Below are positions 2,572 to 11,797 of a stretch of 64,000 nt of DNA, piece after piece. The stretch comes from Alphaproteobacteria bacterium LSUCC0396 (lineage in GTDB: Bacteria; Pseudomonadota; Alphaproteobacteria; Puniceispirillales; Puniceispirillaceae): assembly GCA_041228345.1 (NCBI GenBank), contig CP166131.1, positions 930,001-994,000 on the forward strand, in the 5' to 3' direction. The notes beneath the pieces are model-generated. The model was not told where the DNA came from. It saw only the letters and a program-made list of their open reading frames with translations, and searched no databases. The stretch's first letter is position 1. Each line of letters starts with the position of its first letter. The position numbers and the translations under genes were made by a program.

Positions 2572-3294
2572 TTATTTGGCGATGCAACGAAACCCAATAT
2601 AGACCACCGCCATGTCACGCGGCTTGGTGGCGCCATAATCGGCCGTCATCTGTTGCGCCCCATACCACCATGAACCTCCCATCGTGGCCTGCGCCGAACT
2701 GGTGCCAAGCACTGCCCATTCCCAAACATTTGCGCCCATATCAAACAGCCCGTTAACGCCCTGCTTTGTCCGCCCGACCGGTGCGTGGCCAAACCCTCGA
2801 TAAAGCTGGCGGCTGTAGTCACGCTTGCCAGAAACTGGCACTGCCTCAGTGCCGCAGTCGCCAAGGCAATTGGCACCATGCGGGCTGTCTCCGGTCGGGT
2901 AATCATATGTAACACCGCGTCGGAACGGTGAGGGTGGGGCGAGGCGTTGTTCGGTATAGGCGGCACTGATCCATTCGTCACGGCTCGGCAATCGCTGACC
3001 GCGCCATGCGCAATAGGCCGCAGCCTCATCAAAAGTCAGATGAACCGCAGGCTCATCTGGCGGGCTGACCGTGCCGTATGGCTGCCGCCAGTTCCAGCCC
3101 GGCTTGACCACCCATCCCGCTTCATAGACCATACCGCCATCCAGCTCGGCCTTGGTTTGAAACCCAGTAGCCGCGACAAATTCGGCAAAGGCTCTAATCG
3201 ACACCTCAGTCTGGTCCATCCTGATCGCCATGTCAGCTTGCGCCGGGTTAAAAACGATCAGGCCAAATAGCACCCAAAATATACGCATTGACAT
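2572..3294 (-). CDS. Secreted SUMF1/FGE-fold protein lacking the FGE cysteine pair
   Basis: A 240-residue protein with a signal peptide (MSMRIFWVLFGLIVFNPAQA, then DMAIRMDQTEVS) and a formylglycine-generating-enzyme fold. Seen blocks are VHLTFDEAAAYCAWRGQRLPS, YRGFGHAPVG, NGLFDMGANVWEW, MGGSWW and YIGFRC. The active-site cysteine pair of aerobic FGE, expected a few residues after the GGSW block, is missing: here the sequence is GGSWWYGAQQMTADYG. It is therefore probably not a sulfatase-activating enzyme but a member of the wider SUMF1/PvdO/EgtB fold. The frame extends upstream to 3360, but AGAGGTGGCG just before 3294 fixes the start. Confidence 0.7.
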   Translation of the reverse strand: MSMRIFWVLFGLIVFNPAQADMAIRMDQTEVSIRAFAEFVAATGFQTKAELDGGMVYEAGWVVKPGWNWRQPYGTVSPPDEPAVHLTFDEAAAYCAWRGQRLPSRDEWISAAYTEQRLAPPSPFRRGVTYDYPTGDSPHGANCLGDCGTEAVPVSGKRDYSRQLYRGFGHAPVGRTKQGVNGLFDMGANVWEWAVLGTSSAQATMGGSWWYGAQQMTADYGATKPRDMAVVYIGFRCIAK

Positions 3295-3407
3295 CGCCAC
3301 CTCTTTTTTGTGTGCACAGACCTCATAAACCTGCTGCCCTGCCAATAATAACGAGAACACCAGTGAAGATTAATAGACAAAATGTTTATTATAGCCAGCC
3401 CCTAACG

Positions 3408-4348: not shown

Positions 4349-4456
4349 TTTCTCGACAATCCTTATTTTTATCGGTAATATTTAAAAGCATATAGAGTTT
4401 TGTCTGTCAAACGCTCTTGTCTTTAATTGGGGCGCTAGCTGGCAACCACCAATGTG

Positions 4457-5215
4457 ATGGGGATGAATTTGTTAGCACAGGCCGATATGATTGTAACGGC
4501 TGGTTCGAACGACATAAGCGTTTCGAAACATGAGTCGATGGCGCAGCGGGCCTATCGCATAATTCGTGCTGACATCATTTCAGGCGCGCGCGCCCCCGGC
4601 GAACGGCTCCGGATCGAGATGTTAAAAACCATCTATGATATTGGCCCGACACCGCTCCGTGAGGCTTTGCAAAAGCTCAGCACCGAGGGTCTTGTACTGG
4701 CTCTGGAGAAGCGCGGTTTTATGGTGTCACCACTTGATCTTGATGAATTCAGCGACCTAAACATCGCCCGCATCGAAGTCGAAAAGGTCGCACTTAGCAG
4801 ATCCATTGCACTTGGTGACAGACAGTGGGAGTCACGTGTTGTTGCGGCAACCTATCTGATGAACAAGGAAGATACGGCACTGCTCGCCAGCGGCAACGGG
4901 GTTTCTGATGCGTGGGAGGCAGCCAATGCGGAATTTCACGCGACCATGATTGCTGCCTGTGGATCAAAATGGTTGTTGCAAATGCGCGATCATCTGCAAG
5001 ATATGTGTGAGCGCTATCGCCGGTCATCAATAAGTCAAAGCATCAGAAAAACCGGAGATGGCAAACGTGACGTCGGCAAAGAACATGCCGCTATCAGCAA
5101 CGCAGTGCTGGCACGCGATGCCGGACTGGCCTGCCAACTTACCGAGTCCCACTATATGAAAACACTAGACCGGCTAGAACGTGACCTAAGAATGCTCACC
5201 ACGCCACAAATATAA
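4457..5215 (+). CDS. GntR-family (FadR/FCD type) transcriptional regulator
   Basis: A protein of about 252 residues. The N-terminal winged helix-turn-helix includes AYRIIRADIISGARAPGERL and GPTPLREALQKLSTEGLV. The C-terminal FCD domain keeps metal-site histidines in NAEFHATMI, KEHAAI and ESHYM. FCD regulators commonly bind a carboxylate through a metal ion. The start is uncertain: GTG 4454, ATG 4457 and ATG 4463 lie in one frame without a clear ribosome binding site. Its position between a divergent FAH gene and a co-directional reductase/transporter series makes it the likely local repressor or activator of this island. Confidence 0.85.
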   Translation: MGMNLLAQADMIVTAGSNDISVSKHESMAQRAYRIIRADIISGARAPGERLRIEMLKTIYDIGPTPLREALQKLSTEGLVLALEKRGFMVSPLDLDEFSDLNIARIEVEKVALSRSIALGDRQWESRVVAATYLMNKEDTALLASGNGVSDAWEAANAEFHATMIAACGSKWLLQMRDHLQDMCERYRRSSISQSIRKTGDGKRDVGKEHAAISNAVLARDAGLACQLTESHYMKTLDRLERDLRMLTTPQI

Positions 5216-5239: not shown

Positions 5240-6211
5240 ATGATGAAATACCGATTTCTTGGACATTGCACTGATCCATTATCTGCCATCGGCATTGGCG
5301 GCATGGCAATGACCAATATCTATGGTAGCGCGGATGCGGCGATTGTTGTGAATACGATCCATGCTGCCATGGATGCCGGCGTTAATTTTATCGACACGTC
5401 AGACGCCTATGCTGGCGGCAAAAACGAAGAAATGCTGGCAAAGGCACTGACAGGGCGCCGGCAGAACGCGTTCATTGCCACCAAATTTGGTAATCTGGGA
5501 GGTAGTGCCAATGGACGGCCGGAATATGTGATCGAAGCATGCGAGAGAAGCCTCAAGCGGTTGCAGACAGATGTGATTGACCTTTATTTTCAACATCGCG
5601 TTGATGCTGATGTGCCGATTGAAGATACTGTTGGCGCGATGTCGCGGCTGGTGGAACAGGGCAAGGTGCGTTGGCTTGGCCTGTCCGAGGCTGGACCGGA
5701 AACAATTCGCCGAGCCCACGGCACGCACCCCGTTGCCGCACTTCAAACTGAATATTCACTATGGACGAGATTTGTTGAGGACAGCTATCTGCCTCTTATC
5801 CGTGAACTCGGGATTGGCTTTATTGCATATTCGCCACTGGGCCGGGGAATGCTGACCGGCACTATCACGGGCGCCGACAGCCTTGCAGAAGGCGATCGTC
5901 GCCACGACCACCCAAGATTTCAGGCTGAAAACATCAATGCAAATGTTGCGCTGGTTGCACCGCTTCGAGATATTGCGGCGACAAAAAATGTAACTCCATC
6001 GCAGCTGGCCCTTGCATGGCTGTTAGCGCAAGGCGATGACATCCTGCCCATCCCGGGTACCAAAAATAAATCACATATGCTGGAAAACATCGCAGCCTCA
6101 ATGATCAATTTAAGCGCCAGCGAAGTTGCGGAAATCGGCGCCGCGATCAATCCTGACCTGGTGTCAGGCACCCGTTATCCGGAAAAACAGCTTGGAGGGC
6201 TTGGTATCTAA
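5240..6211 (+). CDS. Aldo/keto reductase
   Basis: A 323-residue NADPH-dependent TIM-barrel oxidoreductase. The catalytic tetrad is visible: Asp in FIDTSDAYAGG, Tyr in the same block, Lys in IATKFG and His in YFQHRVD. The cofactor-binding end is represented by IPGTKNKSHMLENIAA. GGAG precedes the ATG pair at 5240/5243. The gene starts 24 bp after the GntR gene, so the two are probably co-transcribed. Within the island it would reduce or oxidise a carbonyl intermediate of the imported carboxylate; the substrate is not readable from sequence. Confidence 0.85.
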   Translation: MMKYRFLGHCTDPLSAIGIGGMAMTNIYGSADAAIVVNTIHAAMDAGVNFIDTSDAYAGGKNEEMLAKALTGRRQNAFIATKFGNLGGSANGRPEYVIEACERSLKRLQTDVIDLYFQHRVDADVPIEDTVGAMSRLVEQGKVRWLGLSEAGPETIRRAHGTHPVAALQTEYSLWTRFVEDSYLPLIRELGIGFIAYSPLGRGMLTGTITGADSLAEGDRRHDHPRFQAENINANVALVAPLRDIAATKNVTPSQLALAWLLAQGDDILPIPGTKNKSHMLENIAASMINLSASEVAEIGAAINPDLVSGTRYPEKQLGGLGI

Positions 6212-6359
6212 ATGAGGCTTATTGCATGAGCTGCATCGCTATCTAAGTTTTAAAATAGCTTATTCATATAAGAGCTTTACCATACAGAAGCATAGTCATA
6301 ATGTTTTTAAATTAAATTTTACATTCGGCCAAAATGCGGCATGTCGATGGCCTGAATGG

Positions 6360-6373
6360 ACCTACATATAGGT
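6360..6373. promoter_or_regulatory. Short palindrome before the TTT binding-protein gene
   Basis: ACCTA-CATA-TAGGT is a perfect 5-bp inverted repeat about 45 bp upstream of the tctC-like start, in an AT-rich 207-bp gap. It could be the operator of the neighbouring GntR protein, but no second copy was found to support that. Confidence 0.25.
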
Positions 6374-6418
6374 AAAAAGACATGCCCGATGAACCAAGTA
6401 ACCAACTGGGAGGATAAA

Positions 6419-7426
6419 ATGAATTTTGATGCAATGAAACGGCGCCAGTTTTTAAAGACCAGCGCAGCAACTGCTGGCACATTACTTGCTGGTGGCTTGA
6501 TGTCGAGCCCAGCATGGGCAGCCTATCCTGACCGCAATATTGATGTGATCGTTCCAACCCGGGCTGGCGGCGGCGCAGATCGACTGCTGCGCGCAGTTAG
6601 TTCAGTTTGGAAAAACCACCTAAACACTAATTTCGAACCAGGCTTTTTCCCGGGCGCCTCTGGCCGGGTTGGCTATGAAGTCTATATGGGTAAATATCAG
6701 CCCGATGCCTATAGTCTGATCTTTGGCAATATGGGTCCAGAAGTTCTGAACTGGGCAGTAAAAGCGCCAAGTTTTGATATTAATGATTACTTCTATTTTG
6801 GCCGTGTTGACACTGATCCAGGCGTTGTTTTTGTCGGAGCTGAGAGCAAATTTCAGTCAATCGACGATATTATTGCCGAAGGCAAAAAGCGTAAATTGAA
6901 TGTTGGCACCAGCCGCCTTGCGCACCCGGCGTCGATTGGCATCCTCGCACTTGGTGAGGAAGTGGGAGTAGAATTTAATCTTGTGCCTCTATCTGGCGGG
7001 AAGAAGACCGTTGCTGGTGCTGTGACACTTGAGATGGATTTCTGTGTTCTGACTTCAGGCTCGGTGATTGCGGCTGGCGATGCCTGCCGCACGTTGCTGG
7101 TCTTTGACAACAAAAATTTGGCGGGTGACAAGCTTAGCAACGCGCCAACAATGAATGATTATTTCGGCACCAAGCTGCCACCAATGTATTCAGCCAGAGC
7201 TTTTGGCATTCACAAGGCTGCCGCTGACAAATATCCTGACCGGATGGAGCTTTTGCAGAAGACTTTCAAAGATGCAATGAATGATCCTGCATACAAAGAG
7301 GCCTTTCTGAAATCAAAGGGCTTTTGGCCATATTCAAACTATGGCGGCGTTGCCGAATGTGAAGAATTCAAGAGCGCAATGCTTGAGCTTGGTGGACGGT
7401 ATCGTTCGCTTTTGACTGGAAAATAG
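6419..7426 (+). CDS. Tripartite tricarboxylate transporter, periplasmic binding protein (TctC/Bug type)
   Basis: A 335-residue exported protein. GGGAGGATAAA before the ATG at 6419 fixes the start. The N-terminus is a Tat-type signal (KRRQFLKTSAATAGTLLAGG, ending SSPAWAA), followed by YPDRNIDVIVPTRAGGGADR, the start typical of the Bug receptor family. Bug proteins bind carboxylates such as citrate, tricarballylate or aromatic acids. The tctB-like and tctA-like genes follow, separated by a hairpin at 7443-7467. The ligand is probably an organic acid degraded by the surrounding enzymes. Confidence 0.85.
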   Translation: MNFDAMKRRQFLKTSAATAGTLLAGGLMSSPAWAAYPDRNIDVIVPTRAGGGADRLLRAVSSVWKNHLNTNFEPGFFPGASGRVGYEVYMGKYQPDAYSLIFGNMGPEVLNWAVKAPSFDINDYFYFGRVDTDPGVVFVGAESKFQSIDDIIAEGKKRKLNVGTSRLAHPASIGILALGEEVGVEFNLVPLSGGKKTVAGAVTLEMDFCVLTSGSVIAAGDACRTLLVFDNKNLAGDKLSNAPTMNDYFGTKLPPMYSARAFGIHKAAADKYPDRMELLQKTFKDAMNDPAYKEAFLKSKGFWPYSNYGGVAECEEFKSAMLELGGRYRSLLTGK

Positions 7427-7442
7427 ACGCGTTATTAATCAG

Positions 7443-7467
7443 GGGAGCACGCCATTGGCGTGTTCCC
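7443..7467 (+). terminator. Intercistronic hairpin after tctC-like gene
   Basis: GGGAGCACGCC, a 3-nt loop (ATT) and GGCGTGTTCCC form an 11-bp stem with one G-U pair, followed by T-rich sequence. It lies 16 bp after the binding-protein stop and before the membrane subunits. It may act as a partial terminator or an RNA-stabilising hairpin that favours binding-protein expression. Confidence 0.65.
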
Positions 7468-7521
7468 TTTACCATGTATTTTTCCCTTTAATCGCGCAAT
7501 AAGCCGTTTTGGACAATCATC

Positions 7522-8034
7522 ATGACCGAACAAGATCCATCAACACCATCGTCAAAAAAGAACATTGCTGGCGAATTGATAATACCAGTCGGTGCGCTGG
7601 CGTTTACCATCTATTATATCTTTACCGTGATCGAGTCGCCATGGACGGCTCAGGTCAACGCCTTCATGGTTGGCTCAATTCTGCTGGCGGTAATTGGTAT
7701 TTTCCTGATCAGCCGGATCGTCATGCTCGTTCAAGGCAGCGCGCAATTTCATGTCACGTTTGACCGTCTTCCAGATGCTATCAAAAGCCGACAAAGCGGC
7801 TTTATCGGGCTGACAATTCTCTACCTTATCGTCATTGAGTCGATCGGGTTCACATTAACAACAGCTTTGTTTTTCTGGGGGTCAATGCTGCTGCTTGATT
7901 ATGGCAAGGCGCCATTGGCCAAACTGGCGCTCGCCGTTTTTATGGCACTTGTCGCATATGGCATTTTTATTCTTGGCTTTGAAACGCGCCTTCCAAAGGG
8001 TGCTATTGAAACATTTTTGGCAGGGGCTTTCTGA
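7522..8034 (+). CDS. Tripartite tricarboxylate transporter small membrane subunit (TctB family)
   Basis: A 170-residue integral membrane protein with about four hydrophobic segments (IIPVGALAFTIYYIFTVI, AFMVGSILLAVIGIFLI, FIGLTILYLIVIESIGFTL and LALAVFMALVAYGIFILGF). Size and topology match the small subunit of TTT systems, which pairs with TctA. It is followed 2 bp later by the large subunit, so the two are tightly co-translated. Confidence 0.8.
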   Translation: MTEQDPSTPSSKKNIAGELIIPVGALAFTIYYIFTVIESPWTAQVNAFMVGSILLAVIGIFLISRIVMLVQGSAQFHVTFDRLPDAIKSRQSGFIGLTILYLIVIESIGFTLTTALFFWGSMLLLDYGKAPLAKLALAVFMALVAYGIFILGFETRLPKGAIETFLAGAF

Positions 8035-8036
8035 GC

Positions 8037-9545
8037 ATGGACGTTAATCTCGCATTTTTCATTGATCTGTTTTTCCATATAATGGGGATGTGGTGGGTTA
8101 TCGTCCCCTCTATTCTGCTTGGTCTCATTGTTGGTGCAATTCCTGGGTTCAGCGCGGCCAACACAATCATCATCCTGCTGCCCTTTACCTTTATGATGGA
8201 GGTCGAGGTCGGGCTTGTCTTTATGATTGCGCTCTATTGCTCGTCACGGCTTGGCGCGGGTATTCCGGCTATTTTGGTCAATATTCCGGGGACAGCTGGC
8301 GCTGCGGCAACCCCGCTTGACGGCTATCCAATGGCAAAAAAGGGGCTTGGGCAACGCGCGCTGTCGATTTCCTTTGTGTCATCAATTATCGGCGGTGTTC
8401 TTACCACTGCGATTGCCCTTGTGACTATGCCTTGGCTGGCGCGTGTTGGCTTTTATATGCATAGCGTAGAAATGATTGTGGTGATGCTTTTTGGCATTTC
8501 ACTGATTGCATCAGTTGCAGCAAAGGACATGATCAAGGGATTGATTGCTGGCTTTTTCGGACTGATGATCGGCTCGATCGGGGCCGACCATGTTTATGCT
8601 ACCCCGCGTGGCACAATGGGCTTTCTTGAGCTTTATGATGGCGTGCCTTTGATCCCTGCTCTTGTTGGCCTGTTCGCGATTTCCGAGGCTTTTCTGGTTA
8701 TCGAAAGCGGATCAATCTTGTCAAAAAGCAACGTCCAGAATGTGGATAATGCCAGCTGGAAAGAGACTATCAAGGGCGTTCGCATCACCTTGAAGCGCTG
8801 GTATCATGTCACATGGACAAGCATGATAGGGCTTATTATCGGCGTCATTCCAGGCGCTGGCGCTGCCATCGCATCCTTTGTTGCCTATCAGCAATCACGA
8901 ACCTTTTCTAAAACACCAGACGCCTATGGTACAGGACATTACGAGGGGCTGATCGCTCCTGAGGCAGCAAATAATGGGGTAACTGCTGGAACGTTGATAC
9001 CACTGATGGTGCTTGGCATTCCCGGCGGTGCCACAGCAGCCATAATGATGGTGGTAATGCAATATCAAGGCGTGCCTACCGGCCCGCGCCTGTTTGTCGA
9101 ACGGCCAGAGCTGGGCTATGGCGTGTTTATGGCGATGTTGGTGACGTATCTTTTGATGGCCTTCACTATTTTGCCGATGTCACGCTATATGTCGCGGGTC
9201 ACCATGGTGTCGACCACCTACATGTCACCAATCATTATCGCCTTTACGCTTGTCGGTTCATTTGTGCCGCGGGAATATATGTTTGATATGTATCTGGCTT
9301 TTGCCTTTGGCATCGTTGGATATATTGCTCGCAAAACCGGTTATCATGTTGCAGCAATTTTAATTGGTGTGATCCTCGGCCCGCTTCTCGAGCAGTATAT
9401 GCTTCGTGCATTAAAAATGTCTGACGGTGATCCAATGGTGCTTTTCTCGTCATCACTCGGCAATATTTTGTGGGCGGCGCTCGTCATAACCTTAATCTTG
9501 CCGGCATTTTTCAAACGTCGGCGTCACTCCAAAACCGTTGAATAG
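8037..9545 (+). CDS. Tripartite tricarboxylate transporter large membrane subunit (TctA family)
   Basis: A 502-residue permease with about 10-12 membrane segments. The TctA signatures are present: GAIPGFSAANTIIILLPFTF, GIPAILVNIPGTAGAAATPLDGYPMA, and the second repeat GVIPGAGAAIASFVAY with GVTAGTLIPLMVLGIPGGATAAIM. This subunit forms the ion-coupled translocation path for the carboxylate delivered by the TctC-like receptor. The LVIVD propeller gene starts 10 bp after its stop, implying one transcript. Confidence 0.9.
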   Translation: MDVNLAFFIDLFFHIMGMWWVIVPSILLGLIVGAIPGFSAANTIIILLPFTFMMEVEVGLVFMIALYCSSRLGAGIPAILVNIPGTAGAAATPLDGYPMAKKGLGQRALSISFVSSIIGGVLTTAIALVTMPWLARVGFYMHSVEMIVVMLFGISLIASVAAKDMIKGLIAGFFGLMIGSIGADHVYATPRGTMGFLELYDGVPLIPALVGLFAISEAFLVIESGSILSKSNVQNVDNASWKETIKGVRITLKRWYHVTWTSMIGLIIGVIPGAGAAIASFVAYQQSRTFSKTPDAYGTGHYEGLIAPEAANNGVTAGTLIPLMVLGIPGGATAAIMMVVMQYQGVPTGPRLFVERPELGYGVFMAMLVTYLLMAFTILPMSRYMSRVTMVSTTYMSPIIIAFTLVGSFVPREYMFDMYLAFAFGIVGYIARKTGYHVAAILIGVILGPLLEQYMLRALKMSDGDPMVLFSSSLGNILWAALVITLILPAFFKRRRHSKTVE

Positions 9546-9554
9546 GCAGATTTC

Positions 9555-10835
9555 ATGCAAACAGAACCAGTCGCGTTAAATATCGAACAAATTGCCCGAG
9601 TGGACATCGCCGGTGGCGGGCAGGTTACGGTAGAGGATGGATATGCCTATATTGGTCACATGGATGCGCCAGATGGCACCACCATAATTGACGTCAAAGA
9701 CCCATATAATCCCAAAATCGTAGCCGAAATTAAACTCGATGATCATCTATCCCACACGCATAAAGTAAGGGTTGCAGGTGATATCATGATTACCAATGTC
9801 GAGCAGGCGCAGCGACATCTTTTACGGCGAGGAGAGCGGCTACCGGCCCTTCGCGAACAGTTGCGCGATGAGTTGGGGCGTGAGGCCAGCGACGCCGAAC
9901 TTGCTGAGGCGCTTGGTGTTCCGGTGGCAAAGATTGCTGATATTGATCATTTCCTTGCCAATGGCTATCACGATGGCGGTTTTCGCGTTTGGGATATCTC
10001 TGACCGCTCAAAGCCAAAGCTATTATCCTATGTTCGCACGCATGGCTTTGGCACCCACCGGTTTGATATGGATAAGAATTACGCCTATATCTCGACCGAA
10101 ATGGAGGGCTATGTCGGCAATATTTTGGTTATCTATGATCTTGCCGATCCCAGCAATCCGGTTGAGGTTTCTCGCTGGCATATGCCGGGTCAGCACCTTG
10201 CCGCAGGCGAGACGCCGACATGGTCAGGCTATAAGAACCGGCTGCATCACGCATTGCGAGTTGGTGATGAAATGTGGGCTGCTGTCTGGTATGCGGGTTT
10301 TCAGGTGATCGACGTCAAGGACATTAAAAATCCCAAAACCCTTGCAGCGCATAATTATCACCCCCCTTTCCCTGAGCCAACCCACACCGTTTTGCCATGC
10401 GAGCAATTGATTGATGGTCGGCGGATTGCCGTTGTTGTTGATGAAGAACACGATCACACGCCCGGCCTGCTGCACGGCTTTTTGTGGATTTTTGACATCA
10501 CCGACCTCGATAATATCCATGCATTATCGGCCTTTGATGTCAGCGAGATGGACTCGCCTTGGTCGCGTGCCAAGGGCCGCTTTGGCGCGCATCAATTCCG
10601 TGAAAAGATCGACACCACACTAGTTTATGCGACCTGGTTTTCAGGCGGATTGCGGGTGATTGATATCGCCGACCCGTTCAAGCCACGCGAGGTGGCGCAT
10701 TATATTCCGCTTCCCCCCGCTGGGCATGAGAGCCCGCAAAGCAACGATGTCGACGTTGATGACAAAGGCTTTATTTATCTTCTCGACCGCAATGGCGGAC
10801 TGGAAATCTTGCGCATGACGTTGCCTAACAACTGA
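9555..10835 (+). CDS. LVIVD-repeat beta-propeller protein with a sigma-region-3-like helical insertion
   Basis: A 426-residue protein without a signal peptide. It is built of LVIVD-type blades, each ending in a strand such as TTIIDVKDPYNP, FRVWDISDRSKP, FQVIDVKDIKNP or LRVIDIADPFKP. A histidine recurs at the same place in successive blades (about H69, H168, H232, H277, H346; Asn/Asp near 397-398 in the last), suggesting a lined central channel. Between blades 1 and 2, about residues 83-137 form a charged helical insertion whose core, RLPALREQLRDELGREAS and DAELAEALGV, resembles sigma-70 region 3. The function is unknown. Its place right after the transporter suggests an enzyme or binding protein for the imported compound. 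Confidence 0.75.
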   Translation: MQTEPVALNIEQIARVDIAGGGQVTVEDGYAYIGHMDAPDGTTIIDVKDPYNPKIVAEIKLDDHLSHTHKVRVAGDIMITNVEQAQRHLLRRGERLPALREQLRDELGREASDAELAEALGVPVAKIADIDHFLANGYHDGGFRVWDISDRSKPKLLSYVRTHGFGTHRFDMDKNYAYISTEMEGYVGNILVIYDLADPSNPVEVSRWHMPGQHLAAGETPTWSGYKNRLHHALRVGDEMWAAVWYAGFQVIDVKDIKNPKTLAAHNYHPPFPEPTHTVLPCEQLIDGRRIAVVVDEEHDHTPGLLHGFLWIFDITDLDNIHALSAFDVSEMDSPWSRAKGRFGAHQFREKIDTTLVYATWFSGGLRVIDIADPFKPREVAHYIPLPPAGHESPQSNDVDVDDKGFIYLLDRNGGLEILRMTLPNN

Positions 10836-10876: not shown

Positions 10877-11797
10877 ATGATAAATGCCCATCTTGAAAGC
10901 GCTGTTGTCGGCGAAGAACATTGGACTGAAAAAGGTGATGTAAAGCTATTTATGTGGAACAAGTTTTTGCCTGACGCCACGGAAAAAAAGGGAACAATCC
11001 TGTTTGTGCACGGCTCGTCCATGGCATCACAGCCAACCTTTGATCTTCATGTCGATGGGCGCCCATTCAGCTCGGCAATGAATTATTTTTCAACATTGGG
11101 CTATGACACATGGTGCGTTGACATGGAGGGGTATGGCCGTTCATCAAAGCATCGCGACATCACCTGCGACATCGCCAATGGTGCCGATGATTTGGCAGCC
11201 GCCAGCGCCTATATCCAGAATTATCGGAATTGTGGCCCGATGCATGTATATGGCATTTCATCCGGCGCATTGCGCGCCGCAACATTTGCCGAGCGTCATC
11301 CAGAACGCGTTGCACGGCTGGCGCTTGACGCATTCGTCTGGACAGGTGAAGGCAGCCCGACGCTAGCCGACCGGACAAAAAAACTGCCGCAGTTTCTTGA
11401 GTCAAATCGGCGCCCGATTGATTATGCGTTTGTGCAATCAATCTTTAACCGTGATCATCCCGACTGCGTTGAGCCAAAGGTTGTTGATGCTTTTGCCGAG
11501 GCGATTTGCGCACTTGATGACTCGATGCCAAACGGCACCTATATCGATATGTGTTCGCGTTTACCGCTTGTGGACCCGGATAAGATAACCGTTCCAACAA
11601 TTGTTTTACGGGGCCAGTATGACGGTATCGCTGGGGTTCCGGATTTGCTGAAGTTTTTTGAAAAATTGCCAAATCCTGACAAGCAATTCACCTTCATGGA
11701 AGGCATTTCTCATGCGAGTTTCCAGCAGAAAAACTATTTGATGGTCTATGATATTCTATCAGCATTTCTCGGCCGCACAGCACCAGTCTATCGGTAA
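10877..11797 (+). CDS. Alpha/beta hydrolase
   Basis: A 306-residue alpha/beta-hydrolase-fold protein. The nucleophile elbow is YGISSGAL, the oxyanion loop is HGSSMA, the acid is probably in GQYDGIAG and the histidine is in GISHASF. AAGGAAAATCA precedes the ATG. It is the last gene of the island and is followed by a strong terminator. Hydrolases of this group cleave esters, lactones or C-C bonds of ring-cleavage products. Together with the FAH protein it suggests breakdown of an imported ester or diketo acid, but the substrate is not known. Confidence 0.8.
   Translation: MINAHLESAVVGEEHWTEKGDVKLFMWNKFLPDATEKKGTILFVHGSSMASQPTFDLHVDGRPFSSAMNYFSTLGYDTWCVDMEGYGRSSKHRDITCDIANGADDLAAASAYIQNYRNCGPMHVYGISSGALRAATFAERHPERVARLALDAFVWTGEGSPTLADRTKKLPQFLESNRRPIDYAFVQSIFNRDHPDCVEPKVVDAFAEAICALDDSMPNGTYIDMCSRLPLVDPDKITVPTIVLRGQYDGIAGVPDLLKFFEKLPNPDKQFTFMEGISHASFQQKNYLMVYDILSAFLGRTAPVYR

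Follow-up and report, generated by a model that had tools for sequence, protein, structure and literature searches.

The propeller gene and its cluster

The window, which is the whole stretch of 64,000 nucleotides analysed, contains a cluster in the order GntR regulator, aldo/keto reductase, TctC, TctB, TctA, propeller protein and alpha/beta hydrolase:

4454-5215, forward strand: GntR/FCD regulator, head of the cluster
5240-6211, forward strand: aldo/keto reductase, recurring beside homologues of the propeller gene
6356-7426, forward strand: TctC substrate-binding protein with a TAT signal
7522-8034, forward strand: TctB small membrane subunit
8037-9545, forward strand: TctA large permease
9555-10835, forward strand: LVIVD-type seven-bladed propeller protein of 426 amino acids (ORF, Pfam, AlphaFold2)
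10877-11797, forward strand: alpha/beta hydrolase, 41 bases 3' of the propeller gene, also recurring beside its homologues

The propeller gene is a single ORF (ORF list and translation) whose start codon is separated from the TctA stop codon by 9 bases, and its product has no evident signal peptide. Copies at 96-97% identity are found in or near Candidatus Puniceispirillum (SAR116). The connection to a carboxylate transporter, suggested by an earlier sequence-only reading of this DNA, proved to be tight: among 50 homologous loci with upstream sequence, TctA lies upstream of the propeller gene in 39, mostly directly, and was not seen there in the other 11. At some loci, a ModA-like gene is located between the two. 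Elsewhere in the window, on the reverse strand, a DmdA-like protein (1224-2366) scores 376 bits against the dimethylsulfoniopropionate demethylase model, below the NCBIfam cut-off of 410, and the product of positions 2572-3360 resembles, as judged by eye, a protein of the formylglycine-generating-enzyme type.

Three subfamilies of the propeller protein were compared. Subfamily I includes the protein of the window and is mostly linked to TctCBA. Subfamily II genes adjoin sugar ABC-transporter genes or sugar kinases, and occur on plasmids of Rahnella, Erwinia, Pararhizobium and Roseicitreum. The subfamily III proteins belong to SAR116 relatives and have asparagine in place of H69 and H232 (vide infra). 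In one genus of SAR116 (g7), a separate set of TctCBA genes precedes the subfamily III gene, and a gene for a CobW-type GTPase, a putative metallochaperone, lies upstream; this placement is consistent with a metalloprotein but does not prove one. A Skermanella plasmid carries a cassette similar to that of the window plus a TauE gene, and the Rhodobacterales clusters continue with OsmC, a 2Fe-2S subunit and a molybdenum hydroxylase.

The predicted fold and its conserved histidines

The AlphaFold2 model, built from a 47-sequence alignment, predicts seven blades with high confidence (pLDDT 94.4, pTM 0.91). The protein belongs to the LVIVD repeat family PF08309 (42.9 bits, gathering threshold 20.2), which all 47 alignment members match at E 0.01, and falls outside the choice-of-anchor B model TIGR04312 (41.2 bits, 100 required). 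In the predicted structure, H69, H168, H232, H277 and H346 occupy matching places in blades 2-6, each opening inner strand A, as the register motifs of blades 2-7 illustrate (SHT-HKVRV, GT-HRFDM, LH-HALRV, PT-HTVLP, GA-HQF and S-NDVDV). The corresponding position is N397 in blade 7 and G22 in blade 1; the ring thus consists of five histidines, one asparagine and one glycine, with no aspartate or glutamate at any ring position. The sequence-only reading had placed one histidine at the same point of five successive blades, and the model bears this out. Propeller topology and the DSSP assignment suggest that the ring histidines face the central channel.

Conservation follows the same pattern. H35, H67, H69, H168, H231, H232, H277 and H299 are invariant in 54 close homologues and H346 is kept in 98% of them, so that all or all but one of these sequences retain each of the five ring histidines in the family alignment. 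Within subfamily I, the top face of the propeller is more conserved than the bottom face (0.79 against 0.65, with face windows picked by hand from DSSP).

Sb-PTE, a binuclear-metal propeller phosphotriesterase, is the best match in the PDB both by fold (5HRM, E 1.1e-16, with the next protein at 9e-10; Foldseek) and by sequence profile (E 1.8e-10). Its metal ligands in the structure published in 2016 are presumably E201, H258, H389, E407 and H475; these numbers land on E, H, H, E and H in a 583-residue plasmid homologue, and the agreement in residue type supports this list. When the propeller family is aligned with Sb-PTE using hhalign, the probability is 99.6% over 357 columns, which is not proof of common chemistry, because propellers built from the same kind of repeat are readily aligned with one another. 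Two choice-of-anchor B proteins, found with TIGR04312 and taken as a negative control, also align, with a probability of 96.9%. The hhalign comparison pairs H168, E297 and H346 exactly with H258, E407 and H475, and places H277 two residues away from H389, with which it is instead paired by motif. E201 has no direct counterpart and falls near S66/H67. Counterparts thus exist for four of the five presumed ligands, and all four (H168, H277, E297 and H346) are among just 27 residues identical across subfamilies I, II and III. The candidate site residues are as follows:

9657-9659, forward strand: H35, end of strand B in blade 1, the same residue in subfamilies I, II and III
9753-9761, forward strand: H67 and H69, where the inner strand of blade 2 begins; subfamily III has Asn in place of H69
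10056-10058, forward strand: H168, the blade 3 ring histidine, paired by alignment with Sb-PTE H258 (presumed metal ligand)
10245-10250, forward strand: H231 and H232, ring histidine pair of blade 4; H231 is identical in all subfamilies, H232 is Asn in subfamily III
10383-10385, forward strand: H277, the blade 5 ring histidine, matched to Sb-PTE H389 through its motif (HTVLP and HSVVP)
10440-10445, forward strand: D296-E297, where strand B of blade 5 ends; E297 is paired by alignment with Sb-PTE E407
10590-10592, forward strand: H346, the blade 6 ring histidine, paired by alignment with Sb-PTE H475

The positions equivalent to presumed Sb-PTE ligands therefore persist in all three subfamilies, whereas H69 and H232 give way to asparagine in subfamily III. 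Like the Sb-PTE/haloalkylphosphorus hydrolase of Sphingobium sp. TCM1 (5HRM, 5IOJ), the protein is a seven-bladed propeller, but identity between the two is only about 16-23%. Sb-PTE is the longer protein, extended at its N-terminus; it has no equivalent of the helical insertion described below, and carries an inner-strand-start histidine in each of blades 2-7, including the position occupied here by N397.

The ring is not specific to this family, since the choice-of-anchor B controls, which have LVIVD-type repeats but are longer, also possess, as judged by eye, ring histidines and an acidic residue at the place of E297, after strand B. The histidine ring is thus probably a wider LVIVD feature, and its occurrence together with the E297 position in Sb-PTE and two LVIVD proteins makes the metal site look like a property of the wider superfamily. 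For the same reason, the suggestion that the protein could represent a new enzyme class was overstated. The remainder of that picture, a soluble propeller with a metal centre and a helical arm, encoded beside a transporter, can be kept, with the His-lined metal site at the top of the propeller regarded as probable. Such a site may be common to LVIVD proteins, most of which lack an assigned function.

The sigma-region-3-like insertion

One further element interrupts the propeller:

9801-9965, forward strand: helical insertion (residues 83-137) inside blade 2, on the loop joining strands B and C; the part resembling sigma-70 region 3 spans residues 87-136

The sequence-only reading had correctly recognised a helical insertion but had put it between blades 1 and 2; it lies inside blade 2, where strands B (77-84) and C (142-147) flank four helices (87-93, 96-107, 113-120 and 124-136). 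It is found in every sequence of the 54-member set of close homologues. Its likeness to sigma-70 region 3, also proposed earlier, is upheld by several comparisons and exceeds chance. The insertion matches Pfam Sigma70_r3 (PF04539) with an E-value of 7.5e-6 (26.4 bits, cut-off 25.3), and when scored alongside the genome's own FliA-like sigma factor it obtains 27.9 bits against 26.6. A profile of the insertion detects sigma-F (E 1.1e-9) and FliA (E 3.4e-7) in the PDB. Folded alone, it reaches a pLDDT of 82.6, and the 50 best Foldseek matches of the isolated insertion are sigma factors or sigma-containing complexes, with E-values of at least 0.04 and none reaching 0.001. This stretch of 50 residues thus resembles region 3 of the RNA polymerase sigma factors (FliA, sigma-F, sigma-B) in both sequence and helical fold, and the profile score favours descent over convergence without proving it.

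Unlike a sigma factor, the protein has no Pfam match to sigma regions 2 and 4; the region-3-like piece is embedded in a blade, and the remainder is propeller. With region 3 alone present, a sigma factor proper is ruled out. The insertion is conserved at its ends but poorly in its core (mean identity 0.38, compared with 0.63 over the whole protein), and just 15 of the 47 alignment members pass Sigma70_r3 at E 0.01. In the Rhodobacterales, it is shorter by about seven residues, and in subfamilies III and II it is absent or unrelated, with the metal-site residues kept in both. A central contribution of the insertion to the metal site is likewise ruled out, because subfamily III retains the four ligands without the insertion. 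The insertion also apparently explains why a database orthologue (WP_244451195.1, positions 6962-8248 of locus L100) is labelled 'RNA polymerase subunit sigma-70' in RefSeq.

Candidate function and alternatives

By analogy with Sb-PTE, the protein may be a cytoplasmic metalloenzyme of the LVIVD/Sb-PTE type that hydrolyses the cargo of TctCBA, with the sigma-like insertion serving as a lid or docking arm; we give this leading proposal about an even chance of being right. The starts of the top-face strands and the ends of the B strands bear the histidine ring and D296-E297, which would most probably coordinate one or two divalent metals. H168, H277, E297 and H346 are the predicted ligands, and H35, H67, H69 or H231 could complete the site. 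As in Sb-PTE, the metals would activate water, and the substrate might be a small carboxylate, brought in by the adjacent transporter, in ester, lactone or phosphoester form, with the product handed on to the neighbouring alpha/beta hydrolase and reductase. On the B-C loop, at the metal-site face, the insertion would most likely act as a lid or docking arm and not as a transcription factor. If so, a widespread and so far uncharacterised proteobacterial family, found mostly in Alphaproteobacteria, would consist of metalloenzymes, for which candidate ligand residues can now be named and a likely substrate class suggested via the linked transporter.

Other chemistries and roles have to be weighed against hydrolysis. 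Oligogalacturonate lyase and virginiamycin B lyase are metal-dependent propeller lyases, and a lyase or isomerase whose substrate is a sugar acid or carboxylate taken up by the cell would agree with the gene neighbours of subfamily II, which encode binding proteins of sugar ABC transporters and kinases for sugars or sugar acids; a single metal with histidine ligands would also suit elimination chemistry. However, both sequence and fold neighbours indicate Sb-PTE, and no lyase appears among the best 50 PDB matches of the propeller (Foldseek), which makes this option unlikely. It is also rather doubtful that the protein is a purely structural LVIVD propeller, binding the transporter or assisting its assembly, in which the conserved histidines merely support the fold. 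The close placement beside TctA at 39 of the 50 loci would fit such a factor, and the papers found in a literature search described no enzymatic role for LVIVD proteins, but the invariant histidines and acidic residues gather on a single face and correspond to the presumed metal ligands of Sb-PTE, subfamily II is paired with a different type of transporter, and for some homologues the flank examined contains no gene for a transporter.

The sequence-only reading had compared the channel to copper-binding, selenium-binding-protein-type methanethiol oxidases (SBP56; SELENBP1, MtoX), which are likewise seven-bladed with channel histidines and a metal. The comparison fails at the level of profile and ligands. 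The protein scores 25.5 bits against Pfam SBP56 (cut-off 34) and 20 bits against the NCBIfam methanethiol oxidase model (650 required), and hhalign finds only 50 shared columns at 37% probability, covering none of the copper ligands. Those of SELENBP1 (H137, H140, D189 and E252 in human numbering; PMC10362175) differ in type from the ring residues, and the genome encodes a true SBP56 protein elsewhere (680 bits). The analogy with a copper methanethiol oxidase was rejected on these grounds. An SBP56-like oxidase, whose ring histidines would hold copper and which would oxidise a thiol or other small substrate, could draw on the His-lined channel, the weak, sub-threshold SBP56 similarity of 34 of the 47 alignment members, the TauE sulfite-exporter-like genes at 14 of the homologous loci examined and the DMSP-demethylase-like gene 7 kb upstream in the window, but the same mismatches and the separate SBP56 gene render it improbable. 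A non-enzymatic, metal-loaded sensor or scaffold, whose sigma-like domain contacts RNA polymerase or promoter DNA, seems about as improbable: the profile matches to sigma-F (E 1e-9) and FliA (E 3e-7) and a PF04539 score on par with that of the genome's FliA-like sigma factor speak for it, but the poor conservation of the insertion core, its shortening in the Rhodobacterales and the fact that the insertion is absent or unrelated in subfamilies III and II, where the metal site is kept, speak against it. The chance that a metalloenzyme has captured a sigma region 3 domain for contact with RNA polymerase or promoter DNA is very slim; if true, the substrate imported by the co-transcribed TctCBA would feed back directly on transcription.

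Some homologous loci have further features. Two loci in SAR116 relatives (L124, at G020:C3:121500-141000, and L125) each contain a pair of subfamily III propeller genes spaced about 13 kb from each other; the interval holds two TctCBA-type transporters along with genes for TauE and a CobW GTPase. In these loci and in L126, a protein of about 247 amino acids without a Pfam match is encoded directly 3' of a subfamily III propeller gene (L124, 17049-17792, forward strand); the L124 copy has no NCBIfam match either. In the Rhodospirillales, an opposite-strand gene for a ModA-like substrate-binding protein adjoins the propeller gene at six loci (L051, 5167-5874, reverse strand; L047, L049, L053, L059 and L038), and at L051 and L059 this gene has a propeller paralogue on either side.
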